35,301 bases of DNA from a virus, in IMG/VR virus record IMGVR_UViG_3300015360_000112, positions 1 through 35,301 of that record; one strand, 5' to 3'. The notes beneath the pieces were generated by a model. It was not told where the DNA came from. It saw only the letters and a list, made by a program, of their open reading frames with translations, and did no database searches. Below, piece by piece: positions 11,903-33,740 of this stretch; position 1 is the first letter of the stretch; the number at the start of each line of letters is the position of its first letter. The position numbers were made by a program, and so were the translations under genes.

Positions 11903-11960
11903 AAAAAGCCCACATCATGTAGATAGTGGGCCTCCGGTTTTCGGTCAGCTTTATTTAGTT
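11903..11960 (-). terminator. Conserved leader RNA element, copy C (hairpin plus terminator)
   Basis: Minus strand, 5' to 3': AACTAAATA, AA, GCTGA, a 3-bp hairpin CCG/CGG with loop AAAAC, A, then the terminator stem GCCCAC-ATC/GAT-GTGGGC (one bulged T, loop TACAT) and five T. It starts about 3 nt after the predicted transcription start, so the RNA is essentially the element. The same architecture with compensatory changes occurs at 21056-21111 and 33648-33703. In addition, AATAAAGC at the 5' side can pair with GCTTTATT just beyond the T-run, unique to this copy. Confidence 0.72.
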
Positions 11961-11969
11961 GTTAATTAC

Positions 11970-11998
11970 AATGTATCACTATTTGTATGAAAAGTCAA
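11970..11998 (-). promoter_or_regulatory. Sigma70-like promoter of the 12-7.5 kb operon
   Basis: Minus strand, -35 TTGACT (11993-11998), 17-nt spacer, -10 TACATT (11970-11975), predicted start near 11963. The RNA would begin AACAACTAAATA, directly entering conserved element C. It overlaps the end of the 75-residue gene. Confidence 0.68.
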
Positions 11999-18808: not shown

Positions 18809-20380
18809 TTATCTAGTTGAAGGTTGGTAAAGGTTGTTAATTTTTTTCCCTATTTGCATTTCTATTGAGTTGAGTTCCCATGACTGGGTGCTAGTGTTAT
18901 CTTCGACCTGTATTTGGATATTTCTGCCTGTTTTATTAACGGGTATCTTTACAAAGTCTCCTCCCCCTGAGTCAGCAAGTTCTAAACTTCCCGAACCGAC
19001 TCCTATCATTTCTACTCCGATGCTTCCCTGTCCTATACCTGCCGATCCCGTGTTCCCAATCGGAACCGTGTTTGTTTTTATCAATTTCCCGTCTACATAG
19101 ACTGAATAAGTAATAGTCCCTGCGGTCTTCGCAAAATAGAGCAAAACATTAAGAAAGTATTTTGATTGAGCGTAGTTTTTAAATGAAAACTTAGGCGACT
19201 TCCAGTTGGTTGTAAAAGATACTCCGTTGTCTGCTTTTAGAGTTTGGTCAAAGTAGTAAATTTTCCCATCAGCAGCCGAAGAGCCAAAGTACAGTTTTGT
19301 GTCTCCGTTAGTGTCTTTGTATTCTGAAAAGCAATTAGCTCCCAAGTCCCATTCCCACCAGCCAAGTCGCTGGCGATCATACACCATGATTGTATCGTTG
19401 GATGTCGCTCCTCCTGACGTATAAGAAAGGTAGTAATGGTTGTCGTGATACAGTCCCACTACGTCGTCAAGGTTATCTTTTTCAATAGTCTTAATTGAGT
19501 TATCAATACGAAGTGAGAGGATATTTGTTCTAATCTGGTCAAGAATGTTTGGTTCATATCCGGTAGCGTAGACACCTTTTTCATTGAACATAAAGTTGTC
19601 GTTTTCCACTGTATCAATCGAAAAGTGAGAATCGCAACCACGCGCCGGGTCAACAAGTTCAAGTGTGATGGTGGCAGCAGTAGTAGTATCTTGAGAGGCT
19701 CTCCATAAAGAACGCTCCTTGACTGGATAAAGGAAATCTTGGTGTTTAAAGAATCCTGAAAGTTTTTGTCCATCATCTTTTGAAACATATACGGAAGTAG
19801 CAAAGGGGTTAGCGGTCGAGTTCGTGAAGTCTCCGAGTTGAGCGTCAGTTCCTGACCGGTAGAGTCGAGCTTCGTTCCCAGCAGTAGTATTACCACCAGT
19901 CCAGAGAGAAGCTTTGTAGTAAATAAGCCACTTACCGATAACTCCGTTCGTTTGGTTTGTGATAGCAGTTCCTGAATACTTCCGTAAAACATCTGTACCA
20001 TTTTGAATAAAGACAAACCCACCTGCTTGGCACATATCTGTCCGAAGGTTAGTAGTCCACACAGCAGCACTGGCTACCGCAGCAGTCAGAGCAGTAGAGG
20101 TTCCTAAAATAGGGTCAACATCGTACAATGTCCCTCCACTCATAGCGAGCAGTTTTCGAGTAGCACCTGCGTAATATGTTCCAAGTCCCACTACAGCAGC
20201 CGAAGTAGGGAGTGTGATTGCGAGTCCAATCCCTGGCCGTTTTGTGACTGAGTTTTTCCCGACACTCCAAACGTCAGTTGCTTCCGCAGCTTCTGTATCG
20301 TTAATCATGGTGTCTCTCGTAAAGGTGTTTACACCCTTGCCGAGATTGTCATATTGTATAAATTCAGCTTTTTTTGGCAT
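18809..20380 (-). CDS. Tail protein, T7 gp12/P22 gp10-like
   Basis: A 523-residue beta-rich protein starting MPKKAEFIQYDNLGKGVNTF, with the typical opening of phage tail stabilisation/tubular proteins (GKGVNTFTRDTMINDTEAAE, SVTKRPGIG). Repeated beta segments (GTLYDVDPI, FVFIQNGTDVLRKY, KDGDTKLYFGS-like) suggest a propeller that plugs the neck. Its start overlaps the adaptor's stop by 1 nt. It would close the connector after DNA packaging. Confidence 0.78.
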   Translation of the reverse strand: MPKKAEFIQYDNLGKGVNTFTRDTMINDTEAAEATDVWSVGKNSVTKRPGIGLAITLPTSAAVVGLGTYYAGATRKLLAMSGGTLYDVDPILGTSTALTAAVASAAVWTTNLRTDMCQAGGFVFIQNGTDVLRKYSGTAITNQTNGVIGKWLIYYKASLWTGGNTTAGNEARLYRSGTDAQLGDFTNSTANPFATSVYVSKDDGQKLSGFFKHQDFLYPVKERSLWRASQDTTTAATITLELVDPARGCDSHFSIDTVENDNFMFNEKGVYATGYEPNILDQIRTNILSLRIDNSIKTIEKDNLDDVVGLYHDNHYYLSYTSGGATSNDTIMVYDRQRLGWWEWDLGANCFSEYKDTNGDTKLYFGSSAADGKIYYFDQTLKADNGVSFTTNWKSPKFSFKNYAQSKYFLNVLLYFAKTAGTITYSVYVDGKLIKTNTVPIGNTGSAGIGQGSIGVEMIGVGSGSLELADSGGGDFVKIPVNKTGRNIQIQVEDNTSTQSWELNSIEMQIGKKINNLYQPSTR

Positions 20381-20976
20381 TATGCGTTCATTTGTGTAGT
20401 AAAGGTAGTTCCTCCATCGTTGATATTTCTTTGGTAAATGATTTCGCTGAGTCTTCGTTCACATTCACCGATTGCTTTGTCCGCGTCTTCTGCTGGGTCA
20501 AATTCAGCCATACGAAGCATGGCGTAGGCACGGGCCACCACAGCTTCTCCGTCTGGAATAACACACTCGTCAGCGTCAGCACTCATATCTGCTGGTCGGT
20601 AGGTGTAGTAGACGGTGAAGGTAGCGTCCGAAGGGGTTTTAAGGTAAAATCTTCCGTCTTGGTCCCCTGTAACCCAGTAATACTGTCCTGAGGCACTTTC
20701 AGAGTCTTCTTTTGAGATAAGAGTCCACTGATTGTCGCCTGAATCCACTACTTGATTGATAAGAATGAAGTCATCTGGAAGAATGACTGACCCTGATACT
20801 GTCGTGAGCGAGGTGCTTTTTGTAAGTTTCAATCTGTCAGCACAGTAATCTTTGGCACGGTTAAGTAGCCGAATCCAATACGCGAGAGTAGTAGAATCAG
20901 TTGGTAAATCGCCAGCATCGTGGCGGTCTGCTATGCTTTGTTTCAGTTGTGCAAGGGTTGTTGGTGTAAATGGCAT
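20380..20976 (-). CDS. Head-tail adaptor protein
   Basis: A 198-residue protein starting MPFTPTTLAQLKQSIADRHD; a helical N-terminus, a central beta part (ILPDDFILINQVVD..., YYWVTGDQDGRFYLKTP, TVYYTYRPADMS) and C-terminal helices (EAVVARAYAMLRMAEFDPAE). This layout is that of podovirus adaptors (gp4/gp11-like), which sit below the portal. The frame is open to 20994, but 20976 gives the family-like start. It is the first gene after conserved element B. Confidence 0.72.
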   Translation of the reverse strand: MPFTPTTLAQLKQSIADRHDAGDLPTDSTTLAYWIRLLNRAKDYCADRLKLTKSTSLTTVSGSVILPDDFILINQVVDSGDNQWTLISKEDSESASGQYYWVTGDQDGRFYLKTPSDATFTVYYTYRPADMSADADECVIPDGEAVVARAYAMLRMAEFDPAEDADKAIGECERRLSEIIYQRNINDGGTTFTTQMNA

Positions 20977-21018
20977 ATTTATTATTTTTTCCAAAGTTTA
21001 TTTAATTTTTGTATTCCA

Positions 21019-21055: not shown

Positions 21056-21111
21056 AAAAAGCACAAAACGTAGTGTCTTGTGCCTCTGGTTCTCAGTCAG
21101 CGTATTTAGTT
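21056..21111 (-). terminator. Conserved leader RNA element, copy B (inside late operon)
   Basis: Minus strand: AACTAAATA, CG-GCTGA-like core (ACGCTGA), a 3-bp hairpin CTG/CAG with loop AGAAC, A, then the terminator stem GGCACAAGAC/GTTTTGTGCT (about 10-11 bp with G-U pairs, loop ACTAC) and five T. It begins within the stop codon of the 143-residue gene. No promoter is visible upstream, so this copy sits inside the late operon between the sugar cassette and the tail genes. Read-through must be regulated or partial, since tail genes lie downstream. Confidence 0.72.
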
Positions 21112-21537
21112 AAAGCTCGCTTTCAATTCGTTTAGTTTGTTGAGTTTCTGTATTACTTGTATGTATTCTGATAATTTCTTGAGTCTTTTGTAGGGGTCTA
21201 GTTTTTCTGTTTTTACTTCCCCTTCCAGTTCTGCGAGTATGCTTTGCCATTTGGCTGGTGTACTTTCGTCTCCGATCTGCTCTTTAATATACTTATCTAG
21301 TATCCCGAAGTATCCTTTTAGTGGAAATTCATTGGCTATTTCTTTAATACCGAGTAGCTCTAAGCCATATTTTCCGTTTGCAATCTCCCAGTCCTCTAGG
21401 GCATTTTTCTTTTTAATCTCCTCTGGTTTGTTTTCTATATCCGTTACAATCAATCCCTCTGTTTCTCTCGGCTTGTCTGGGATTATTTCTATCTCTACTT
21501 CTTCTACTTTTTCTCGAAAGACTGTATCGTTTGACAT
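21106..21537 (-). CDS. Hypothetical protein, 143 aa
   Basis: Starts MSNDTVFREKVEEVEIEIIP, with a disordered acidic first 45 residues, then helices (ALEDWEIANGKYGLELLGIK, PYKRLKKLSEYIQVIQKLNK). It is the last gene of the capsid/sugar block; its stop codon is part of element B. It overlaps the aminotransferase end by 34 nt. Perhaps a structural or assembly protein; no family recognised. Confidence 0.68.
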   Translation of the reverse strand: MSNDTVFREKVEEVEIEIIPDKPRETEGLIVTDIENKPEEIKKKNALEDWEIANGKYGLELLGIKEIANEFPLKGYFGILDKYIKEQIGDESTPAKWQSILAELEGEVKTEKLDPYKRLKKLSEYIQVIQKLNKLNELKASFN

Positions 21538-22508
21538 ATCTTTTTGACATCTTCTAGGGACATATCAGTCCAGGTTGGCAAGTAAAGTATTCTTTTTGAC
21601 CATTTGTAAGCGTTGAGGTTTTCGTATTCTCCGAGGTACATGGGCTGCATTGACATTGGCTTAAATCCGTACCGCGTCTCTATTCCGTTTTTGCTTAGAT
21701 AAGCCTTTAATTCCTCCTGGTGGTCTGTTTGTATGTCATACATCCATAGCACGTCTCTAGGTGGCATTTTTAGGCTCGTGGGAAGGTTCTCGTCGTACCA
21801 TTTTTCTATTTGTTTTCGTTTACTGAGTATCTCGTCTATCCGTTCCACTTGTGCCACTCCGATAGCTGCTTGAATGTTTGTGAGTCGGAAGTTGTGTCCT
21901 ACTTTTGGATGAATCATGGTGCGATCTTTGTCGAAGTACATATTGGCGTACAGTCGCATTTCATCTGCCCATTCTTTGTTATTCGTCAGGCACATTCCTC
22001 CCTCCCCGGTAGTCAATATCTTGTTCCCGTAGAATGAGTAGCAAGCTATGTCTCCTGTTGGAGTTACTCCGTGTGCTTCTGCCATGTCTTCAATTACTGG
22101 TACTCCAAACTCTGGTATTACGAGACTTCTTCCGTATATAGGAACTGATATAATCGCTTTCGTTTTTTCTGTTGTCCGTATCTTAGTAATGTCCATGAGT
22201 AGGTCGTCTCCGCAGTCTACAAACACCGGCGTTGCTCCTGTATACGTTACTGCCCAGGCGGTAGCTATCATGGTGTACTCAGGCACTATTACTTCGTCCC
22301 CAGGCCCTATTCCTAAAGCCTTGAGAGCTAGGTAAATGGCGTTGGTTCCAGAGTTACAGGCCACTCCGTGTTTCATGAAGTTGTATTCTGCCCACTCTTC
22401 TTCAAATTGGTTGATAAAATGTCCTACTCCTATATCACTCTTTGTCAGAGCGTCATAAACGTATTCCTTTTCTCGGTCTGTGATTGAGGGTTTAGATAAG
22501 GGGATCAT
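21504..22508 (-). CDS. PLP-dependent sugar aminotransferase (PerA/DegT family)
   Basis: A 334-residue DegT/DnrJ/EryC1 aminotransferase that puts an amino group on a 4-keto sugar nucleotide using glutamate. The PLP lysine is K163 in SFYGNKILTTGEGG, the form typical of GDP-perosamine synthases; NSGTNAIYLAL (52-62) binds phosphate and VIEDMAEAHG (138-147) holds the cofactor Asp. The start at 22508 (MIPLSKPSITDREK) matches the family; upstream codons to 22601 overlap the cupin gene. With the GDP-mannose dehydratase two genes upstream it would yield a GDP-4-amino-4,6-dideoxy sugar. Slightly short at the C-terminus for the family. Confidence 0.88.
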   Translation of the reverse strand: MIPLSKPSITDREKEYVYDALTKSDIGVGHFINQFEEEWAEYNFMKHGVACNSGTNAIYLALKALGIGPGDEVIVPEYTMIATAWAVTYTGATPVFVDCGDDLLMDITKIRTTEKTKAIISVPIYGRSLVIPEFGVPVIEDMAEAHGVTPTGDIACYSFYGNKILTTGEGGMCLTNNKEWADEMRLYANMYFDKDRTMIHPKVGHNFRLTNIQAAIGVAQVERIDEILSKRKQIEKWYDENLPTSLKMPPRDVLWMYDIQTDHQEELKAYLSKNGIETRYGFKPMSMQPMYLGEYENLNAYKWSKRILYLPTWTDMSLEDVKKICQTIQSFEKK

Positions 22509-22848
22509 CGAGTTTGAATGTATCAAGTGAATAATTTTTACCTGTTCTCTTCCCGTAACATATAGACACCATTTCAGAATCTTCGAGTGCCTTATAAGCA
22601 TGAGGTGTTTTTGGTAAGTGCGTGATCATTTCTCCTGGCCCCACTTCAACGGTCTTATTTCCACACTTACAAATGAGTTTTCCTGAAAGAATGAGGTCAT
22701 ATTGTGCGGTTTCATTGTGATAATGATTCCCCCGTACAGCACCTTTTGCGAAGGTAATGTAAGTGGTGGAAGAGCTATCAGTTACGAGAACGTCTACAAT
22801 GTTTCCTCTTTCGTCTTTAAACTTTCCTTCGAGTTCTAAGTGCCTCAT
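22492..22848 (-). CDS. Cupin protein, probable sugar-nucleotide isomerase/epimerase
   Basis: A 118-residue single-domain cupin. Motif 1 is RGNHYHNETAQYDLILSG (H42, H44) and motif 2 includes PGEMITHLPKTPHAY (H83). Small cupins of this kind in polysaccharide clusters act as 3,4-ketoisomerases or 3,5-epimerases on 4-keto sugars. It overlaps the C-methyltransferase gene by 4 nt and the aminotransferase by 17 nt, so it belongs to the same pathway. The exact reaction cannot be read from sequence. Confidence 0.78.
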   Translation of the reverse strand: MRHLELEGKFKDERGNIVDVLVTDSSSTTYITFAKGAVRGNHYHNETAQYDLILSGKLICKCGNKTVEVGPGEMITHLPKTPHAYKALEDSEMVSICYGKRTGKNYSLDTFKLDDPLI

Positions 22849-24026
22849 AAGATTTCTACTCTAGGAAGAGCAACAATCCATTTTCCCTTGAAGTCAGGGT
22901 TGTTGTTGATAATCTCAAACTTGAAATTCCAAGCCAGTAACAAAGCATAATCCGGCTGCTTCTCGATTAGTGTTTCGTCAGACAGCACTTCAATGAATGT
23001 TCCGGGCGTAAATCTACCTTGCTTGAGTTTGCTCTTATCCGTGGCGAATGAGATATACTTTCCAATCCCTGTGTAATTCAGAAAGGTATTGCCTTTCGCT
23101 GGAGTTGAGACTATTGCTATAGTCTTTCCTTCTGAATGGAGGTTTTGGACAAGTTCACTTATCTGGTCACGGTTATGTTCTACTAACTCTGCGAAGCATA
23201 TTAACGTAGCGAGAGTCCAGTTTTCTGAGGCGAGCATGACGTGTACTGCTGTAGTTACTTCTCGCTGTCCTTTACGGGCAACATACACTCGGAATACTCC
23301 TCCGTGTAATTCGTGAGTCTCTACGTCGAACACTTCCATTCCATTCATTTCCATGAACTTTGCTACTGGCTTCAGTGAGAGGTATGAAAGATGTTGATGA
23401 TACACAGTGTCGTACTCTAAGCCTTTTAAGAATTCTCCAAAGTAAGGAGATTCAAAGACGAATACTCCCTCATCCGTCAAGATGCCCACAATGTCTTTCA
23501 TAAACTTTTTCAAGTCATGGACGTGAGCAAAGACATTTGTTCCGATTACAAGGTCTGCTTTAAAGTCATACCCTGACTCTCCGAAGAACTCTTGTTTAGT
23601 AGGAACTCCTCGATCTATAGCAATCTGAGTAGCTTCTGGTGTTGGGTCAATCCCTAAGACTTCATGTCCGAGTGATTGAAATTTGGTAAGGAGCGTCCCG
23701 TCGTTAGACCCTATATCTACAACGAGAGAGTTCTTTTTTAATCCGACCTTTTCAGATACGGTTTCTGCGAACTCAGTCCAATGGGCATTTGCTGTCTTGG
23801 TAATTGAAGATTCGTAGAGATAATCATTCAAGTAGAGTTCTTCCTTAGCGACAATGTATGTCAACTGATTGAGGCCACAATCTTGGCACTCTGATACCCC
23901 TAACGGGTATGTCATTTCTGCTTCTTCTTTACTTTTGTGGAACTGGTCTGAATGGGGTTGGTGTCCTAAATCTAACCACTGCTTCAAATCTTTACTTCCA
24001 CACATCCTACAGGTTTTTGCTTTCAT
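22845..24026 (-). CDS. Sugar-nucleotide C-methyltransferase
   Basis: A 393-residue enzyme of the three-domain sugar C-methyltransferase family (TylC3/NovU-like). The N-terminal zinc domain has CRMC (6-9) and CQDC (47-50) with LDLGHQPHSD; the SAM domain has VVDIGSNDG (102-110); the YHQHLSYLS stretch corresponds to the usual YHEHLSYYS with Gln for Glu; the C-terminal domain has the PAKGNTFLNY motif. It adds a methyl group to a carbon next to the 4-keto group. The E-to-Q change deserves attention since that residue is near the active site. It overlaps both neighbours by 4 nt. Confidence 0.85.
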   Translation of the reverse strand: MKAKTCRMCGSKDLKQWLDLGHQPHSDQFHKSKEEAEMTYPLGVSECQDCGLNQLTYIVAKEELYLNDYLYESSITKTANAHWTEFAETVSEKVGLKKNSLVVDIGSNDGTLLTKFQSLGHEVLGIDPTPEATQIAIDRGVPTKQEFFGESGYDFKADLVIGTNVFAHVHDLKKFMKDIVGILTDEGVFVFESPYFGEFLKGLEYDTVYHQHLSYLSLKPVAKFMEMNGMEVFDVETHELHGGVFRVYVARKGQREVTTAVHVMLASENWTLATLICFAELVEHNRDQISELVQNLHSEGKTIAIVSTPAKGNTFLNYTGIGKYISFATDKSKLKQGRFTPGTFIEVLSDETLIEKQPDYALLLAWNFKFEIINNNPDFKGKWIVALPRVEIL

Positions 24027-24946
24027 AGTTTTGTAGAGTTACGTTCTTGGTACATTATCTTTGCGAGTTCCTTTGCTTTTACTTTTGGAACCCAACCTAA
24101 CTTGTCTTGAGCTTTCTTTGGCTTCCCGTGTAGCGTGGGCACGTCTACAGGTCTTAGGTAATCCTTGTCTTGTATGATTTTTATTTCGTGTCCTGCTTCT
24201 TCTGCCACCCAATCTACGAACTGCTTAATGCTGTTAGTTTCCCCTGTAGCTACTATGTAATCATCAGGTTCATCTTGTTGGAGCATGAGCCAGGCCATTT
24301 CCATGAACTCTGGTGCATAACCCCAATCTCTTTTAGCATCTGTGTTCCCTAAATGCACTTCTCCTTTGTCAGCTTCTTGGACTATCTTTTGCGTGACGAA
24401 GTTTACTCCCCGTCTCGGACTCTCATGGTTGAAGAGAATCCCGTTACAGATAAACATTCCATAGGCATCGCGGTAATTCTTGGCTAACTGATACCCATAG
24501 AGCTTAGCTGTCCCGTATGGACTGACTGGATTGAATGGCGTGTCCTCTGTTTGAGGGGCTTCTAATCCGTCATAGAGTTCTGAGGTGCTTGCCTGGTATA
24601 TCTTTGGACTTATTCCGAGTACCCTGATTGCCTCTAAGAGGTTTAGTACTCCGATGCCAGTTGTCTGAGCTGTGTAGAGTGGTGTTTCCCAACTTACTTG
24701 CACATGGCTTTGGGCCGCTAGGTTGTAGACTTCATCAGGCTGTGAGGCTTTTAATGCCCACATGAGACTGAAAGGATCAGTCATATCGCCATAGTGGAGC
24801 TTTATGTCTAGCCCTTCTATGCGTTGTCTGTTAAAAGTGCTACTTCTTCGAATCAACCCGTGTACTTCATAGCCTTTTTCCAGTAAGATTTCAGCCAGGT
24901 AGCTTCCGTCTTGACCTGTGACTCCAGTGATTAGTGCTTTTTTCAT
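24023..24946 (-). CDS. gmd: GDP-mannose 4,6-dehydratase
   Basis: A 307-residue short-chain dehydrogenase-type enzyme making GDP-4-keto-6-deoxymannose. The NAD(P) motif TGVTGQDG is at 7-14; NLAAQSHV, the STSELYDG segment and YGTAKLYGYQL provide the Ser/Glu and YxxxK catalytic set; NHESPRRG..FVTQKI is family-typical (usually FVTRKI). The 24946 start gives the normal N-terminus MKKALITG and overlaps the upstream stop (ATGA). It is the first committed step of the pathway in this cassette and needs only host GDP-mannose. Confidence 0.92.
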   Translation of the reverse strand: MKKALITGVTGQDGSYLAEILLEKGYEVHGLIRRSSTFNRQRIEGLDIKLHYGDMTDPFSLMWALKASQPDEVYNLAAQSHVQVSWETPLYTAQTTGIGVLNLLEAIRVLGISPKIYQASTSELYDGLEAPQTEDTPFNPVSPYGTAKLYGYQLAKNYRDAYGMFICNGILFNHESPRRGVNFVTQKIVQEADKGEVHLGNTDAKRDWGYAPEFMEMAWLMLQQDEPDDYIVATGETNSIKQFVDWVAEEAGHEIKIIQDKDYLRPVDVPTLHGKPKKAQDKLGWVPKVKAKELAKIMYQERNSTKL

Positions 24947-25758
24947 AGAGTTTCCCATATTACTAAGTGATTTTTAACGTAATTTTCCCATGTCCAGTTT
25001 TCTGCTGGATTTAATGAAAGTTCCTTAAATATCTTATTCAATTCATTTTGGGTATCGAAGGGATGTGTAATCTCAAGCTCCTTGTGGAATCCTACTAACG
25101 GGGCAATGGTACGAACACCTGCTTGGGTTGCGTCTAATACAGATATAGCTCCCTCATCTTTACCGAAGTAGAGAAGATAGTCAGCCGAGTTGAGTATTGA
25201 CTGCCCTGTTTCTGGAGAGTAGTGCATCTGGTACATGATTCTGTGACCAGCTTTACTTACTTTTTCGACTATAGGCTCCCAACCTTCCCCAACGATATTC
25301 CAAACAAACTTTTCAGGGTCTATTGTTTTTAGTAGTGCCTTAAACATTTCCTCACGTTTCCTTCCGTCTGGGTAGAGTTGAGTAAGGATTGCAATTATTC
25401 GAGGTCTTCGTACTACATTCGTTGCCGGGTTTACTACAGAAAGGTTTTTAATACCCTCCTTTTCGAGCTGTTCTTTGGTTTCCTCAGACATACAGATTCC
25501 ATGCGCTTCCTTTGCTACCTGTTTCATCTTCTCGATTTTCTCAGGAGTATCAATGTGCGTAACCATAGTGGTATTCTTTCCACTATGTGACTGGTATGAC
25601 TGGTAGTTGATATGGTGGTTGATGTCTGCCGCTTCTGGTTTCTCAGAAATAGTTACGTCGTGACCAAGTCGAATCAAGTTGTTTACCATTTGGTCAGCAT
25701 ATTTCGTCAGAATTCCTGATTTGATACCGATTTCGTAATTTACAATGTGGATTTTCAT
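24943..25758 (-). CDS. Glycosyltransferase, GT4-like, 271 aa
   Basis: Starts MKIHIVNYEIGIKSGILTKY, a GT-B fold N-terminus with LIRLGHDVTI and MVTHIDTP strands; the C-terminal half has WNIVGEGWEP, LLYFGKDEGAISVLDATQAG, where E in the DEGA region occupies the E-x7-E position of GT4 enzymes. It is short, near the lower limit for a complete GT-B. It probably transfers a sugar made by the cassette. Coupled to both neighbours by 4-nt overlaps. Confidence 0.78.
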   Translation of the reverse strand: MKIHIVNYEIGIKSGILTKYADQMVNNLIRLGHDVTISEKPEAADINHHINYQSYQSHSGKNTTMVTHIDTPEKIEKMKQVAKEAHGICMSEETKEQLEKEGIKNLSVVNPATNVVRRPRIIAILTQLYPDGRKREEMFKALLKTIDPEKFVWNIVGEGWEPIVEKVSKAGHRIMYQMHYSPETGQSILNSADYLLYFGKDEGAISVLDATQAGVRTIAPLVGFHKELEITHPFDTQNELNKIFKELSLNPAENWTWENYVKNHLVIWETL

Positions 25759-27569
25759 ATTTTTGTATGCCTATTCCAATCAAAGTAACGGTTTCCTGGG
25801 TGTCTGTCAGTTTTATCTTCTGCGACTGATCCGGGGATAATTCCCCACTTCTCATCCTGCATTGCTACAGGAAAAGAGACTTGATCGCGTTCTGAATGCC
25901 GACATATCTCTGCCCACCAGCGCTCAAACGCAAGATTTGCTTGTTCAGTGTTTCTTCTTACGAAAGCTGTGAGTTCACAAAGTCCATTATGGTAGGGATA
26001 TTCATTCCGCGCGTATTGTTTTGTCTGCTCTGCAAGTTGCCGGATGTCTCCTTTTCCTAATTGCACACAAGCATCTGCCTCCTGATACACGCAATCTCTT
26101 CCCGGATGCCTAAAGAATGCAAAATCTTTCTCTCCTAAGAGCTTTACTAGCTCGTGAGGGTCGCATTTCAGGTCCATGTTACCGTCCATCCACACAATGT
26201 ATTCGTGGTCGATGTACTTGTGACTCAAAACTTTATGAATCTTTGCATTCATGACCGGTTTCTTGAACTTCTGGCACACCGGATACGTTTTCCATGCACT
26301 AGACTTAGTCTTTTCATCGACGAATGCAATGTACTCCACTCCCTCGTACTCTTTTTGGTCTCTTAGCTTGTCTTTCCCTCCGTCAATGGCTGTTATTACA
26401 GCAATTTCCTTCCGTTCAGAGATTTTTTTCAAGAGTTTTTCGTACTTAGGGATTTGATCCTTTACATGGAAGTCTTTTAGAGTAGCTTTTTTAGCTGCTT
26501 GTCCAATTTCCTTCCGTAATTCAGGGTTTTCGATAAGTTTTCCAATGTTTTCCATCCAATCAGACCGACTTTTAGCGAGGAACCCTGTTTTACCATGGTC
26601 CACGCTTTCTTTATATGGTCCGACATTCGAAAGTACCATTGGGATTTCTAACATAGCGTGTTCCATCCACTTGATATTTGATTTGCAGCGGTTAAACTGC
26701 GTATCTTCCAGTGGGGCTATGGCTATGTCTAGTCCTAATGAGGCGAGAAACTCTGGAAAATCCTGATATCCGCTTGTCCCTATGTGATGAGTGAAGTGTG
26801 GCAATATCTTTTCGATATTAACCTTTACGTTAGAGAGTTCAATAAGGCGCTGTAATGTAGCCGCGTTAATCATCTCTTCTGTAGGGTTATCGACGTCCAT
26901 GATTTTCATGTGAATCATTCCTGCGAAGTGTATGTGCACGTTTGGATAACGTGATACTAAATCCTCAAGAATAGGCATGACAATCTTTAGGTCAGCAATG
27001 TGTGAAGCAGAAGCTATCCATCCGATATGAATCTTCCCGTCATCTTTCAGTTGATTTGTGAACTTCCAGATTTCAGGGTCAATGGCGTTCGGAATCACTG
27101 TGACGTATGGGTTATCTTTCTCAATAACCTTCTTGATGTCTTCAGTAGAAACCACAATGTGGTCTGCCATCTCTATCATCTTCTTGACCTGTGGCATTTT
27201 TTCCTTTAGCTTCAGGTATTCCGGGTGGTCTTTCGAAAAGGTATAGGGATCGTCGTCTAAGTCGAGAACGTATTTACAGTCCATAAACTCCTTTGCTACT
27301 CCAATGTGGAGATCAATCCCTTCGTTGTCAGTCATCTTCATGAACCAAATCTTGCCATTTTTAGCAAAATCAATAGCCCACTCTGGCGAAAGAGTAACTT
27401 CCCGAAGCTGGCTAATAATCTTCGCCCCTAACTTTTCTAAGGGGTTAATGATTCTATACCAACTAACAGCACCGTATTGTCCTTCTGCGCGTTCTCGGAA
27501 CGTGTCAGTACAGACACCTACAACACTATAGGGGTTTTTTGAATGGTTTCCAGGGGAAATCTTTTTCAT
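25755..27569 (-). CDS. Two-domain glycosyltransferase: GT4 plus DUF616/TOD1-MUCI70-like
   Basis: A 604-residue protein. Residues about 14-390 form a GT-B/GT4 domain (YRIINPLEKLGAK, VVSTEDIKKVIEKDNPYVTV then IPNA, HIGWIASASHIADL, later EHAMLEIPMVLSNVGPYKES). Residues about 395-604 match the DUF616 (TOD1/MUCI70) glycosyltransferase-like domain: EYIVWMDGNMDLK, FRHPGRDCVYQEADACVQLG, then RDQVSFPVAM and HPGNRY. The fusion could build a two-sugar unit. The start at 27569 (MKKISPG) overlaps the upstream gene by 44 nt; the frame is open to 27668. Confidence 0.82.
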   Translation of the reverse strand: MKKISPGNHSKNPYSVVGVCTDTFRERAEGQYGAVSWYRIINPLEKLGAKIISQLREVTLSPEWAIDFAKNGKIWFMKMTDNEGIDLHIGVAKEFMDCKYVLDLDDDPYTFSKDHPEYLKLKEKMPQVKKMIEMADHIVVSTEDIKKVIEKDNPYVTVIPNAIDPEIWKFTNQLKDDGKIHIGWIASASHIADLKIVMPILEDLVSRYPNVHIHFAGMIHMKIMDVDNPTEEMINAATLQRLIELSNVKVNIEKILPHFTHHIGTSGYQDFPEFLASLGLDIAIAPLEDTQFNRCKSNIKWMEHAMLEIPMVLSNVGPYKESVDHGKTGFLAKSRSDWMENIGKLIENPELRKEIGQAAKKATLKDFHVKDQIPKYEKLLKKISERKEIAVITAIDGGKDKLRDQKEYEGVEYIAFVDEKTKSSAWKTYPVCQKFKKPVMNAKIHKVLSHKYIDHEYIVWMDGNMDLKCDPHELVKLLGEKDFAFFRHPGRDCVYQEADACVQLGKGDIRQLAEQTKQYARNEYPYHNGLCELTAFVRRNTEQANLAFERWWAEICRHSERDQVSFPVAMQDEKWGIIPGSVAEDKTDRHPGNRYFDWNRHTKI

Positions 27570-27837
27570 ATTTTTCGATATAGGGTGTGCGCTTAACAAT
27601 GAAGTTCCAGTTCTTGAGTTGGTGTTCAGTCTCAAAGTAATGAGGCATAACATGTCCGAGCCAATCACGATAATAAGGGTTTGGTTCCGAGTATATTTTC
27701 TTTGGAACCGTCATTAGATGTTGGTTTCGAAACTGTACAGAAAGAATGTCGTTTGTGAATGGCACTTTTCTGATACGAAAACTAAACTTCTTTACTAACC
27801 GCTCCAACCGATGATTATGGCGACTAGAGTTTGGCAT
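27526..27837 (-). CDS. Hypothetical protein, 103 aa
   Basis: Starts MPNSSRHNHRLERLVKKFSF, basic and rich in aromatic residues (NPYYRDWLGHVMPHYFETEH, NWNFIVKRTPY). The start overlaps the GroES-like gene's end by 14 nt. It lies between a chaperonin-like gene and glycosyltransferases, so it could belong to either function. No family recognised. Confidence 0.62.
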   Translation of the reverse strand: MPNSSRHNHRLERLVKKFSFRIRKVPFTNDILSVQFRNQHLMTVPKKIYSEPNPYYRDWLGHVMPHYFETEHQLKNWNFIVKRTPYIEKYEKDFPWKPFKKPL

Positions 27838-28208: not shown

Positions 28209-29147
28209 CTATGCTGCGACTACGTCGACAAGCCAGTTTGCGTTGAGTACGACTGCGGTATACGCGTCGACTTTCCAACCAACTACACTGTAGAGATCAA
28301 GAGGGTTAGATGTATCAGACTCGTTAGAGCGCTTTACAAATACCCGTGAATTTCCTGATCCTGTTACGTCCACTTCGGCTACAGCGCCCTTACCAGCAAC
28401 GAAGTTACTGTAAAGAGTTACCGTAGAAGCACGAGTGAAGTTTACGTTTGTTTCAACAATGTCTACACCGTAAAGTGATCCGATCATTCCGTTCTTTAGC
28501 ATCTTTGCGTTTTCAGCAGAGTTGTAAAGTCCGATATTGATCCAGTTACCAGCAGCAGTATCACCACGAAGAGTGAATCCACCTTGGCTTGAAACGACAG
28601 CACGATAGTTGCCGCTTTCCCACTTAGGAGCTTTGTTGTCGAAGAGGGTTTTAACAGCCCGACGGAGTTCAGCTACTGTAAATGTGTCAGTAGAACCGAT
28701 AGCAGTGAGTTGCTTAGAAGCAGCACATTGCATGGTTGCACCAGCACAGATAGCAGTACCGAGAACGTAATCCATCTTTTCACCAGCGAACTGGCCGAAG
28801 TTTTCTACATGTTCTTTAAGACCAGCGTCGATAGACGTAAGTTCAAAGAAGGTAGATACACGCTCATAAGCACCATAAATGGCAGCTGTAGCGATGACAG
28901 TAGAAGCAGTTGAGTTTACTTCGCTAGGGTTCACACCTTCTGTGATAGCAGTGCCATCAACAGTGAAAGGGGTGTAGCGAGTAAAGTAAACGACTTTACC
29001 ACTATTTTTCGGGATAGATTTCTTAATCGCCAAGAAGTCATACTTACGAGCAGCTTCAGCTCTTTCGAGGAAAAGTCGGTCGTAGTAGATCTGCATGGTA
29101 GATGTCAGATTTCCGGGGGATGTCAAAGCAGTTGTCATTACTGACAT
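28209..29147 (-). CDS. Major capsid protein, N4-gp56 family
   Basis: A 312-residue protein. The opening (SPGNLTSTMQIYYDRLFLER), KSIPKNSGKVVYFTRYTPF and ITEGVNPSEVNSTASTVIAT, then AIYGAYERVSTFFELTS, match N4-gp56-type major capsid proteins (HK97 fold). The C-terminal segment (GKGAVAEVDVTG..., DLYSVVGWKVDAYTAVVLNA) is also typical. It follows the scaffold gene by 5 nt. Despite the name, the rest of the genome is not N4-like (no giant virion RNA polymerase). Confidence 0.88.
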   Translation of the reverse strand: MSVMTTALTSPGNLTSTMQIYYDRLFLERAEAARKYDFLAIKKSIPKNSGKVVYFTRYTPFTVDGTAITEGVNPSEVNSTASTVIATAAIYGAYERVSTFFELTSIDAGLKEHVENFGQFAGEKMDYVLGTAICAGATMQCAASKQLTAIGSTDTFTVAELRRAVKTLFDNKAPKWESGNYRAVVSSQGGFTLRGDTAAGNWINIGLYNSAENAKMLKNGMIGSLYGVDIVETNVNFTRASTVTLYSNFVAGKGAVAEVDVTGSGNSRVFVKRSNESDTSNPLDLYSVVGWKVDAYTAVVLNANWLVDVVAA

Positions 29148-29999: not shown

Positions 30000-30281
30000 T
30001 TATAGTCCTTCGGATGAGCCTTCTAACTCGTAAATCTTATTTTTTAAATCAGCGTGTATTGCTTCAACTAGCTTCATGTAGATCTCTATCCCCTCGAGCT
30101 TTCCACCCTTTTTCCACGACTCGTTGACGCTTTCGACATAGAAGTTATGGGGGCTTGCTGTCATTTCCTTTTTTGCCTTACTCATTGGCTTTGCAATGAA
30201 TTTCTGGAATATCTCAGAGCTTATTAAGTCCCTCATCATTACCAGTTCGTCTATTTCTGCTTGTAGAGTTTCGCGGTCCAT
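30000..30281 (-). CDS. Hypothetical protein between portal and scaffold
   Basis: A 93-residue helical protein starting MDRETLQAEIDELVMMRDLI; predicted long helices at both ends with a short turn (TASPHNFYVESVNES). It overlaps the portal stop by 1 nt. Small helical proteins at this position can be head-assembly or portal-associated factors; none is specifically recognised. Confidence 0.72.
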   Translation of the reverse strand: MDRETLQAEIDELVMMRDLISSEIFQKFIAKPMSKAKKEMTASPHNFYVESVNESWKKGGKLEGIEIYMKLVEAIHADLKNKIYELEGSSEGL

Positions 30282-32119
30282 TATTGTATTGCTTGCTGGT
30301 TAAGGTTGTCCCCCATGCCACCACCCATCATTTGTTGGTCTGGCATCTCTCCTGGCATCTCTCCTTGCATTCCTTGACCCATTGCCATTTGCTGTTGTCC
30401 CATAGCCATCTCCATTTCTCCCTGTTGGAGTTGCATTTGTTCTTGCTGCTCCATTATTGGGTTTGTTTCTGAAATGATTTCATCAATGTTGTCTATTCCT
30501 TGGAGTTCTGCTATACGACGACCAAAGGCTCTTTTCTCTTGGTCTGTTAAGAAGTTCTGCATAAGGTTAAAGAGTTCCACTTGTCGCTTTGCTTCGAGGT
30601 TCTTGTTACGAGCGATATTGGTTTCTCCCTTGATCTTGACGTTGTATCGTACGTTGTCTTTCTCGTTGATAAGGACTTGGTAAACCTGCTCTCGTATTTC
30701 TTCGGGAAAGATACGAAGGATCTGTGCATCTGGACTCTGTAAGTTTTCAAGCTCCATTCTGAGCATCATGTCAGCAATCTGAGCGAGTCCATTTTTAAAT
30801 CTTCGAACAATGAGTTCAAAGCGATTAGAGGTATTTGCTTGTGCTATTTCGTCTTGTCCGAGGGTGTCATTAGAAGCAGAACCCTGTATAAGATCTGTAG
30901 CTCCTGAGGCTCGCTTGTGTGCGTCTTCTAACATACCTAGAAGGTCGAAAGCAGACTGAGTGACATCATTGAACGGTACAGGTTGAATAACGTCTGAGAG
31001 AGACTTTCCTTGGGTATCTACTTCGACAAAGCCACCTGGTTTTGATACAAATTGACGTTTATCATTAACTGTCCCTCTCGAAGTAAGAAACATTTGGTTG
31101 TTCCCTAACTTGACGTTTGTGGAAATTTGGTTCGTCATTCTGTAAATCATCTTGTCAAGACCAAGAGTATTTTGCCCTACTCCAAAACCTTCGTATCGGT
31201 TTGGTATGGCGTTCGGTTCGAAAACAAACTTCACTACATTTTTAAAGTTGTATGGGTTTTCAGTATCACGAAGGACCTTCCCGTTAGCTATTGTCTGAAT
31301 ACGGTCATTGTCGATAAGTTCAAATACCTCAACCATTCCATTGGTTGCTTCTTGTTGAGCATTAGGAATATCTACACCCATAAGACCTGAGGAGTCATAC
31401 GGGTTTTGTTTTCCACCTGATTCTTCTAAATTATCAGCGTTTCTCGTACCCTCTTTCCCGATGTAGTTATAAATTGGATTTTCTTTCACTTCCTTTACAG
31501 AAAGCACAGAACGGAAAATGATACATGGTTGGTCCTTTATCTCTGGGATAATCGGGTTAAAGTACACGTCTAAGTGATTTGGTACTTCGATATCTGGTTC
31601 ATCGATAACGGGGACCTCATACTCCATGGGATTGCCATCTAATCCAACCTCTTCACTCATTTCTTTCTTAGTAGAAAAACGCCATAATACTTTGGCTTCT
31701 GATGTTCCGAAGGTTACGAATTGTCCTACTACGGATTCAATCTTTTCTTTAAAGTTTGGGATTGTGGCCCAGCGATGATTGATAATTTTTTCATAGAGTT
31801 TTGCAATAGCTTTGTCCTCATCTCCTATACCTTCGAACTCAACCTCAGGATCTCCGGAAAAGATAAAAGGCTTAACGTATGAAATCTCAGTACGAAGTTT
31901 AGGAATATCATCTTTAGTTGCGTATGGTGTTGACTGGATATAATCAGTCTTTCCCATGTAGACGTTAAAAATCTCTGCGAATTCAGAACGAGAGTCTACA
32001 GTTGCTTGTTCGTATGACTTCTTGAGACCCTCAATACGCTTAACGATTTGGTCCTCTGTCATTTCCTTCGTTTGTTTTTCTTGAGACTCGTATTCGTTAG
32101 TCTCGGTAGTAGGTTCCAT
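30281..32119 (-). CDS. Portal protein
   Basis: A 612-residue protein, dodecameric portal of the head vertex. Evidence: place directly after the large terminase; N-terminal KSYEQATVDSRSEFAEIFNV, a central AIPNRYEGFGVGQNTLGLDK and long helices (RMTNQISTNVKLGNNQMF, ASGATDLIQGSASNDTLGQDEIAQ), as in P22-like portals of short-tailed phages. The last 50 residues are a Met/Gln/Gly repeat (EMEMAMGQQQMAMGQG...), probably disordered. It overlaps the terminase end by 23 nt. Confidence 0.85.
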   Translation of the reverse strand: MEPTTETNEYESQEKQTKEMTEDQIVKRIEGLKKSYEQATVDSRSEFAEIFNVYMGKTDYIQSTPYATKDDIPKLRTEISYVKPFIFSGDPEVEFEGIGDEDKAIAKLYEKIINHRWATIPNFKEKIESVVGQFVTFGTSEAKVLWRFSTKKEMSEEVGLDGNPMEYEVPVIDEPDIEVPNHLDVYFNPIIPEIKDQPCIIFRSVLSVKEVKENPIYNYIGKEGTRNADNLEESGGKQNPYDSSGLMGVDIPNAQQEATNGMVEVFELIDNDRIQTIANGKVLRDTENPYNFKNVVKFVFEPNAIPNRYEGFGVGQNTLGLDKMIYRMTNQISTNVKLGNNQMFLTSRGTVNDKRQFVSKPGGFVEVDTQGKSLSDVIQPVPFNDVTQSAFDLLGMLEDAHKRASGATDLIQGSASNDTLGQDEIAQANTSNRFELIVRRFKNGLAQIADMMLRMELENLQSPDAQILRIFPEEIREQVYQVLINEKDNVRYNVKIKGETNIARNKNLEAKRQVELFNLMQNFLTDQEKRAFGRRIAELQGIDNIDEIISETNPIMEQQEQMQLQQGEMEMAMGQQQMAMGQGMQGEMPGEMPDQQMMGGGMGDNLNQQAIQ

Positions 32120-33278
32120 GTATTTCTAAATAAGGATCTTTTATTTGTTCTGTTGTTGGTCGATAGTTACTAAACCCATATCGTATGGCATCCATTGGGT
32201 CTGAAAATGTGTGTTCTGGCTCATTGAGTATCTTTCCTTCCTTATCAGTCTTGAATAGGTAGTTTCGATAGCATTTAATTGTGTTTATGCTTTTCTGAGT
32301 GAGTGATATTCTCTGGTCCTGTACGAACTGAATCCCCTGCATCACTGAACCTTGTCCCTTGGTAGCACCTATAATGTTTACTCCGTAGCTCCGTATCTCA
32401 TCGATACTCTTCGGTTCTGCACTATCTGCTATGACCAAAGTCTCTGGATTAGGGAGATTGAGGATAAAGTCTGCTATCTGCTTATTACTCATTCCCTTCA
32501 TGTAGAGTTGCTCGTCTACAATGAATCCGTCGTTGTATTTATATATGTCCTCGAGAACAGTTGGGTCATTGGTATATCCGAAGTCAAGTCCTCTTACTTC
32601 TAACCTTGCTTCGTGTGGTATCTCCTCAATGATCTTCCAATCTCGGTATACTTTGCCCTCAACTTCTCCTAGTTGTCCGAGTCCGTATACTTGCCACCAG
32701 CCTTTACGATTCTTACGCTGTTCGATTGAGTCGATGATCTCCTTAGAAAGCCCCTCGTTGTCCTTGTAAGTGAGGACAAGCTGTTCTGCATCATCTCGGC
32801 TCCCCATAATGTCCGTGTACCACCAGAACTCACTTGTTGGGTTCCAGTCGAGGATCACGAATTCTTTAGTACGGACCTCTAGTTCTTCGAAGGCTGGGAA
32901 CTTAATGTTGTTAGCCTCGTTGACGAAAAGTCTCTCTCGTCTAGCTCCTCGTACCTTAGTGCTATCGTCTACTGAAAAGAACTCTATTTTGCTTCCTGAC
33001 TCGTATGTATAAACACTGTTAGTCTTATCCCATCTCTTTTCATCAAAATAGTTATGTTCCTTCATGATCTTCTCCCAGTCCCTCATGGCTCCTCTTCGTA
33101 AGTGTGGGAAGCTCTCTGAAACAATACTGGTTAGGGTCGGGGTTTCATCTCTCTGTGCTAGATCTATCAAAAACTGTATGACGCTTATTGTTTTCCCTGC
33201 TGAAGTTCCTCCCGGTATTCCCCTAAGTCTCTTCTTGAGTTTCAGTATCTTCTTGAGTGCTGTTGTTACGACGAACAT
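32097..33278 (-). CDS. terL: Terminase large subunit
   Basis: A 393-residue packaging motor. Walker A is GGTSAGKT (23-30), Walker B RLFVNEAN with E121 as catalytic acid, and WNPTSEFWW the coupling motif. The nuclease domain has D in VRGLDFGYTNDPT, D in VIADSAEPKS and D in FSDPMDAIRYG. This pattern fits Terminase_3/PBSX-type enzymes. The first ATG gives a short N-terminus and overlaps the small terminase by 56 nt; no better start lies downstream before Walker A. Confidence 0.93.
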   Translation of the reverse strand: MFVVTTALKKILKLKKRLRGIPGGTSAGKTISVIQFLIDLAQRDETPTLTSIVSESFPHLRRGAMRDWEKIMKEHNYFDEKRWDKTNSVYTYESGSKIEFFSVDDSTKVRGARRERLFVNEANNIKFPAFEELEVRTKEFVILDWNPTSEFWWYTDIMGSRDDAEQLVLTYKDNEGLSKEIIDSIEQRKNRKGWWQVYGLGQLGEVEGKVYRDWKIIEEIPHEARLEVRGLDFGYTNDPTVLEDIYKYNDGFIVDEQLYMKGMSNKQIADFILNLPNPETLVIADSAEPKSIDEIRSYGVNIIGATKGQGSVMQGIQFVQDQRISLTQKSINTIKCYRNYLFKTDKEGKILNEPEHTFSDPMDAIRYGFSNYRPTTEQIKDPYLEIHGTYYRD

Positions 33279-33555
33279 AATCTAGTAGAGGTATTGGTTT
33301 TCCTGCTGATGTAATATCTGAGTTTGTTTGGGGATTCCCTTCTGCGAGCTTCCATATGTCTACCTTATCTATTCCCCCCATGAATTCTCGCTTCTCTTCG
33401 TCAGTCATTTCCTGGAGGTATTTCTTAGCATATTCTTTAAGTGATATGCTCCCCTTTGGACGACCGCCGGGATTGCCTGATTGTCCAGGCTTAAACTGGT
33501 GTGGCTTCAGCCAGTCCCTGTTGTTTTCAGACTGTTTTTGTGTATTATTTTCCAT
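33223..33555 (-). CDS. terS: Terminase small subunit (DUF5681-type)
   Basis: A 110-residue protein with the signature FKPGQSGNPGGRPKGS (about 22-37) of the DUF5681 domain, followed by helices (SLKEYAKKYLQEMTDEEKRE) and an acidic tail. Proteins with this domain commonly precede large terminases and recognise the packaging site. It is the first gene of the late operon, behind promoter 33711-33740 and two structured leader elements. Confidence 0.8.
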   Translation of the reverse strand: MENNTQKQSENNRDWLKPHQFKPGQSGNPGGRPKGSISLKEYAKKYLQEMTDEEKREFMGGIDKVDIWKLAEGNPQTNSDITSAGKPIPLLDYVRRNNSTQEDTETQEET

Positions 33556-33647: not shown

Positions 33648-33703
33648 AAAAAAAGACACAATCGGTGTGATTATGCCTCGGTTTTTCCGTCAGCTATTTA
33701 GTT
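33648..33703 (-). terminator. Conserved leader RNA element, copy A (late operon leader)
   Basis: Minus strand: AACTAAATA, GCTGA, a 3-bp hairpin CGG/CCG with loop AAAAA, A, then the terminator stem GGCATAATC/GATTGTGTC (9 bp with two G-U pairs, loop ACACC) and seven T. It begins at about the predicted transcription start of promoter 33711-33740, so every late transcript would start with it. All morphogenesis genes lie downstream, which makes read-through control likely. Confidence 0.75.
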
Positions 33704-33710
33704 CCCTTCT

Positions 33711-33740
33711 ACTCTAGCATACTTTATCAATTCTTGTCAA
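33711..33740 (-). promoter_or_regulatory. Sigma70-like promoter of the late operon
   Basis: Minus strand, perfect -35 TTGACA (33735-33740), 18-nt spacer, -10 TAGAGT (33711-33716, 4 of 6). Predicted start near 33704, at the first base of element A. The weak -10 may mean that an activator is needed, as fits a late promoter. It overlaps the end of the 83-residue gene. Confidence 0.55.

Follow-up and report, generated by a model that had tools for sequence, protein, structure and literature searches.

What is the role of a short structured RNA that occurs three times in one phage genome, each time as a small hairpin running directly into an intrinsic terminator? The copies lie in IMG/VR record IMGVR_UViG_3300015360_000112, a virus sequence of 35,301 bases that was analysed in full (the window; Table 1) and that encodes a terminase, a portal, a major head protein, a DnaD-like loader, an exonuclease and a methyltransferase. 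Nearly all phage genes are encoded on the minus strand, which is also the strand of the three copies. An initial annotation had read them as members of a structured RNA family that contains its own terminators, is under selection for its structure and acts in attenuation or antitermination. This reading is supported by our analysis; the annotation had overlooked a stem that is exclusive with the terminator and a probable DUF2292-like protein partner.

Table 1. Positions of the features discussed, numbered along the 35,301-base window
Feature	Position	Strand	Remark
P0001, DUF2292-like, 93 aa	33744..34025	-	Assigned by profile, fold and position
Promoter-like site TTGACA-18-TAGAGT	33711..33740	-	Consensus match only; between P0001 gene and copy 1
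Copy 1	33648..33703	-	5′ end 33703; model R1 30.1 bits, E=1.2e-4
Copy 1, lead AACTAAATA	33703-33695	-	A/T-rich
Copy 1, P1 GCU/GGC	33694-33692 with 33677-33675	-	
Copy 1, internal loop	GA 33691-33690 / A 33678	-	
Copy 1, P2 CGG/CCG	33689-33687 with 33681-33679	-	AAAAA loop
Copy 1, terminator AGGCAUAAUC..GAUUGUGUCU	33678-33654	-	Followed by T-run
DUF5681 gene	33223..33555	-	First gene 3′ of copy 1
Large terminase	32097-33278	-	3′ of DUF5681 gene
Portal	30281-32119	-	After large terminase
Major head protein	28209-29147	-	After portal
Sugar-modification block	21504-27668		Within late region
Glycosyltransferase	25755-27668		In sugar-modification block
Nucleotide-sugar epimerase	24023-24958		In sugar-modification block
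Aminotransferase	21504-22601		In sugar-modification block
Copy 2	21056..21111	-	Anatomy as copy 1, P2 CUG/CAG; R1 27.0 bits, E=7.5e-4
Promoter-like site TTGACT-17-TACATT	11970..11998	-	Consensus match only; just 5′ of copy 3
Copy 3	11903..11960	-	Anatomy as copy 1, P2 CCG/CGG; R1 29.7 bits, E=1.6e-4

All three copies were recovered where the annotation had placed them, and none is expected by chance. The full pattern, AACTAAATA-N0-3-GCTGA-N10-14-AGGC, matched three times in the window and not once in 100 dinucleotide shuffles, and the core alone, with up to three mismatches allowed, gave three matches against 0.14 expected. The short hairpins with their 5-nt loops and the T-runs of 5-7 residues were as described. 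The shared order of parts also held, but GCTGA is not the plain single-stranded tag that it had been taken for, as its first three bases pair with the GGC at the foot of the terminator stem. The element core is GCU-GA-(P2 hairpin)-A-GGC, in which GCU and GGC form stem P1, followed by an internal loop of 5′-GA and 3′-A, a P2 stem of 3-6 bp and a 4-5-nt loop. P1, the asymmetric GA/A loop and P2 make up an antiterminator of 20-25 nt. The intrinsic terminator (AGGC..GCCU-UUUU) takes its 5′ base from the 3′ arm of P1 and, because one GGC serves both, it and P1 are mutually exclusive. The terminator stems, thought to be wholly different, do differ in sequence, yet all open with AGGC. In energy calculations, P1-P2 came to -6 to -12 kcal/mol, and the best fold, formed by the terminator and usually P2 with it, to -13 to -28 kcal/mol. 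Termination, being lower in predicted energy, is therefore the predicted default. The AACTAAATA signature is common to the window copies and a few relatives, but it lies outside the conserved core and is lineage-specific; many family copies lack it, and we rejected it as the core. A kink-turn reading of UGA/AG was likewise rejected: the second strand is AG rather than GA, and in L246, L332, L340 and L362 the GCU/GGC positions are a stem.

Copy 1 stands at the head of the late genes. The first gene behind it encodes a DUF5681 protein, whose position suggests a small terminase. Copy 2 lies within the late region, 5′ of ORF 20380-20994, and its first bases fall in the stop codon of ORF 21106-21537; the sugar-modification block, which also includes a weak methyltransferase match, ends just 5′ of this copy. 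Copy 3 heads the block of replication and recombination genes (11881 down to 133), just after a promoter-like site. Two copies had been placed at predicted transcription starts, and sigma-70-like sites do lie just 5′ of copies 1 and 3. The first matches 10 of 12 consensus bases, with a predicted start (~33704) at AACTAAATA, and the second 9 of 12; matches of this quality are common in shuffles, with means of 0.5 and 1.0 per region, respectively. In L307, a 62% terminase relative of the window phage, a promoter-like site followed by a strong terminator without GCUGA precedes the late genes, about 450 nt 5′ of terL, which is another way of gating the same late operon.

Pattern scans of viral contigs and genomes, followed by a structure filter, left about 29 members from phages, the Streptococcus satellite phage Javan257 and bacterial chromosomes; matches to a CTAAATA pattern were nearly all chance and were sorted out by structure. 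A descriptor with free P1 sequence added one relative, L246 (head protein 55% identical), with P1 UGCCU/AGGCA. A covariance model (R1) built from 15 copies, none from the window, found all three window copies (E 1.2e-4 to 7.5e-4). It also matched L243, a relative at 85% by head protein, and 41 of 398 Bacillota genomes, often with several matches in one genome. Related phages, unrelated ones and bacterial chromosomes thus all have homologues. Searched with the Rfam release 15 covariance models, the element exceeded no family gathering score, and the loci gave only tRNAs and cobalamin riboswitches elsewhere; tRNA, Rfam and T-box identities found no match to the element, and Tn916 canT, a long RNA without resemblance to it, was rejected. 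That no named element carries this signature, as the annotation had proposed without a search, was borne out by the lack of any Rfam family match: the family is widespread in phages and Firmicutes, and unnamed. In many phages, tens of nucleotides at most separate the T-run from the start of the next gene, which gives a promoter little or no space. Alkalibaculum (L172/L248) has five copies near genes for B12 transport and secreted proteins, two of them being 3′ terminators of duplicated secreted-protein genes.

Selection on structure had been inferred from compensatory changes among the window copies. Three copies alone are insufficient for this, but the wider family establishes covariation, which extends far beyond them to 57 distinct copies. 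Across these, P1 was paired at 99.4%, P2 at 99.1% and the terminator at 97.2%. None of 500 shuffles reached the observed pairing or covariation score, and slid controls paired at 4-59%. Double changes were found in three of four P2 pairs and six of seven terminator pairs, and compensatory changes in P1 as well (GC 53 and AU 2; CG 51 and UG 5; UG 51, CG 3 and UA 2). Because the model to which the alignment was fitted held P2 and the terminator without P1, the P1 counts are not forced by model pairs. The MAFFT alignments A1 and A2, with variable loops, placed some copies wrongly and were excluded from the counts. In L332 and L338, a change from GGC to GGU is accompanied by matching changes in both partners, to ACU in P1 and to ACC in the terminator. 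L362 reads UUAAUU-GA-CCAG..CUGG-A-GAUUAA, with P1 AUU/GAU and terminator AGAUUAAG/CUUGAUCU. At the level of sequence comparison, this three-way agreement is direct evidence for selection on both predicted folds.

Could these be ordinary intrinsic terminators that happen to follow a hairpin? Terminators opening with AGGC are common, which is what this explanation has in its favour. The chance expectation of zero or 0.14 copies in the window, the recovery of all three by a model trained elsewhere, the covariation and the linkage to DUF2292 described below have already refuted it, and we give it virtually no weight.

The gene context of the bacterial copies was the only route by which the putative regulator was recognised; an all-against-all BLAST for a shared phage protein missed it because it is too short and diverged. 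In several bacterial loci, small ORFs with ..YGSVTIVVQDGRVVQIEKTEK.. lie directly 5′ of the element and belong to PF10055 (DUF2292, YezD), a family of roughly 55-residue alpha-beta-beta proteins. DUF2292 occurs in 68 of 398 Bacillota genomes, including 32 of the 41 that are R1-positive (7 expected, p=2e-20), and 15 of 79 R1 matches lie 0-700 nt downstream of a DUF2292 gene, where about 0.01 are expected. With a sequence-free structure descriptor, 14 of 25 DUF2292 loci had an element at most 200 nt downstream, and the 3.3% of bases that directly follow DUF2292 stop codons held 14 of its 20 matches (p=6e-17). The descriptor and R1 tests are not fully independent, as some loci are shared and the genomes have common ancestry. 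A DUF2292-like ORF lies 5′ of the element in most of the phages that carry the RNA; PF10055 was found in 12 of 25 element-bearing phage records searched (10 over the cut-off), on the same strand and 5′ of the element. A protein-only search of viral contigs added one phage (L388/L389) with an element 428 nt downstream of DUF2292, a truncated match (L392), and one contig, L390, in which no element was detected. The linkage is incomplete: DUF2292 was not detected in nine R1-positive genomes and one phage contig (L269), about half of the DUF2292 loci had no element within 200 nt by the structure descriptor, and many R1 matches in Bacillota lie far from a DUF2292 gene. We conclude that DUF2292/YezD is likely to be the partner of the element.

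The family offers no functional precedent. The PF10055 annotation describes only an uncharacterised small protein, and we found no function, RNA target or phage role for DUF2292/YezD in the open literature, with most subscription papers outside the search. No solved relative was detected by sequence and no fold match at E<0.001; AlphaFold2 predicts alpha-beta-beta with a core pLDDT of about 90.

In the window, the candidate is P0001, encoded directly 5′ of the late promoter-like site with its stop codon 49 nt before the GCTGA of copy 1. A single-sequence Pfam scan found no match, with the PF10055 gathering score not reached; the protein is too diverged for this, and its assignment therefore rests on profile, fold and position. 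Aligned by hhalign together with two relatives, P0001 matched DUF2292 with a probability of 80.8% (E=1.3e-5, 30 columns), and its L243 relative scored 14.3 bits in the PF10055 scan against a cut-off of 22. An HMM built without the window group gave E=7e-4 for the L243 relative, 1e-4 for a new ORF 5′ of the G156 element and 0.04 for an ORF in G006. As negative controls we used window relatives without the element, G164 and terminase relatives; in 14 element-less relatives, several of them fragments, the HMM detected no DUF2292-like ORF at E<0.5. AlphaFold2 modelled P0001 as alpha-beta-beta-alpha-beta-beta (mean pLDDT 79.6), and the protein is predicted from this model to be two DUF2292-type units fused in tandem. 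Weak LAGLIDADG-like fold matches of the model (E about 0.1, TM about 0.4) were not significant and were not used. The case for P0001 as a DUF2292 member is a good one that falls short of certainty. The predicted two-unit fusion has a parallel in tandem DUF2292 proteins of bacteria, encoded by ORFs of about 115-137 aa such as G481:C8, G336:C35 and G430:C15; two PF10055 matches were found in some bacterial ORFs.

Identified by eye from sequence, the genes 3′ of the bacterial copies include those for cysteine synthase, ATP sulfurylase, sulfonate/taurine-type transporters and corrinoid proteins. Across loci L321-L380, DUF2292 and RNA elements cluster with sulfur, sulfonate and corrinoid genes, a pattern that looks like a dispersed attenuation regulon in Firmicutes. 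Cobalamin riboswitches precede DUF2292 in L236, L322 and L344. Such neighbours would also suit a sulfur- or B12-related small-molecule riboswitch with P1-P2 as its aptamer and DUF2292 as no more than a frequent companion. The aptamer would then be only about 20 nt long and constrained only at GA, A and the stem pairs, and phages that share no metabolic genes carry the same pair of element and DUF2292, leaving this explanation highly unlikely.

Often the DUF2292 gene is followed directly by the element, which in L357 overlaps the stop codon, with the UGA of GCUGA as the stop; translation termination and the RNA switch may be coupled there. Both arrangements would fit autogenous feedback, in which DUF2292 binds the RNA to act in another direction or at another step, promoting termination, protecting the 3′ end or acting on mRNA stability or translation. 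P1 is nevertheless kept by covariation and is incompatible with the terminator, whereas a pure terminator needs no P1; downstream phage genes have little room for promoters of their own, and many copies are distant from a DUF2292 gene. We consider an action of this kind improbable, although less so than a riboswitch.

G006 (L284) carries, at 834-970, two tandem, circularly permuted copies of the motif, GCUCAG-A-GGC-GAUA-GCU-GA-CUGAGC and CCCCAG-A-GGC-AAUA-GCU-GA-CUGGGG, which form stable hairpins 5′ of a separate terminator and are preceded by a DUF2292-like ORF on the plus strand (358-525). This permuted arrangement argues in favour of the internal loop, together with the stems on either side, as the object that is recognised. 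With no overlap between motif and terminator, it is not accounted for by simple occlusion and suggests an alternative mode of action. An RNA that modifies RNA polymerase in cis, like HK022 put, without a dedicated protein, could be placed in this way, and two of the window copies are promoter-proximal. In nearly all copies, however, the 3′ arm of P1 lies within the terminator, which a processive cis-acting antiterminator would not need, and the strong linkage to DUF2292 would be left unexplained; we see very little chance that the element works in this way.

The element family, the mutually exclusive pairings with their covariation and the genomic linkage to DUF2292 are observations. That the element is an attenuator, bound and antiterminated by a DUF2292-family protein, is the explanation we hold to be probable; protein binding, its direction and timing and any signal are inferred, as no binding or transcription data exist for the element and DUF2292. 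By default, the terminator would form and end the transcript, at a length of about 55-60 nt for those copies that directly follow a promoter. The small DUF2292-family protein, P0001 in the window, would bind the GA/A loop and flanking stems and keep P1 closed while the polymerase passes, so that transcription enters the operon. With the P0001 gene directly before the late promoter-like site and copy 1, the terminase and head genes would be gated, and the same control would extend, through copies 2 and 3, to a further late segment and to the replication operon. The position of copy 3 at the head of the replication block strains the simplest form of this model, as it requires early read-through or an earlier source of the protein.

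In phage lambda, the regulator gene Q precedes the late promoter pR′, the terminator tR′ follows at once, and the late genes need read-through; Q is loaded at the DNA, and N binds boxB upstream and makes RNA polymerase processive. The window has regulator gene, promoter-like site, terminator and late genes in the same order, whereas the RNA site of the element, unlike those of Q and N, is an alternative fold of the terminator itself and is repeated at each terminator. In the BglG/LicT/SacY systems, a protein stabilizes a 20-30-nt hairpin (RAT) with asymmetric internal looping that overlaps a terminator, with termination as the default (PMC4347634, PMC3369936). The element meets the test of an antiterminator hairpin overlapping the 5′ arm of the terminator, but it has one GA/A internal loop where RAT has two loops, and its copies did not match the RAT sequence pattern of published sites. 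BglG combines a CAT domain with PTS regulatory domains (PRD), in contrast to an alpha-beta-beta partner of 50-90 aa; the partner candidates matched only PF10055 (21 of 27), with no CAT or PRD match. Unlike the BglG/LicT systems, the element is found in phage late operons and at sulfur and B12 loci. ANTAR proteins (NasR, AmiR, EutV) also bind small hairpins beside terminators at several sites per regulon. Their helix-turn-helix domain recognizes two stem-loops with critical A1 and G4 in the loops (PMC3369936); the element has one hairpin, a variable loop (AAAA, ACAA, CCAA, UCAGU) and its fixed bases in the internal loop and, lacking two tandem stem-loops with A1 and G4, was rejected as an ANTAR RNA. 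LoaP, which binds a UNCG tetraloop hairpin (PMC12691694), resembles this system in pairing a small leader hairpin with terminators in Gram-positive operons; a LoaP target was ruled out because the loops are of another type than UNCG, and the partner does not resemble NusG. The best reading is that the element works like BglG/LicT-RAT, to which it is unrelated, and is placed like lambda Q-pR′-tR′. The attenuation logic is known; the RNA motif and the protein family are new.

More broadly, and with less confidence than for the attenuator itself, we favour the view that DUF2292/YezD is a class of minimal RNA-binding antiterminators not recognised before, which reads an RNA code of its own, the GA/A internal loop between two short stems, serves Firmicute regulons and a phage late switch and may act in the permuted form too. 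Firmicutes would run dispersed sulfur, sulfonate and corrinoid regulons with it, and unrelated phages would have taken up the switch for their late genes; the permuted form with its separate terminator may also work, which would imply an action on RNA polymerase beyond terminator occlusion. The motif of about 25 nt is modular and, with its 55-residue protein, could serve as a genetic switch. If the proposal is true, a family of unknown role that is widespread among the sampled Bacillota genomes would gain a function and a named RNA target, and the pair would rank among the smallest protein-RNA antitermination systems. It would also explain late-gene gating in several phage lineages and bring sulfur and corrinoid genes under a common attenuation mechanism.
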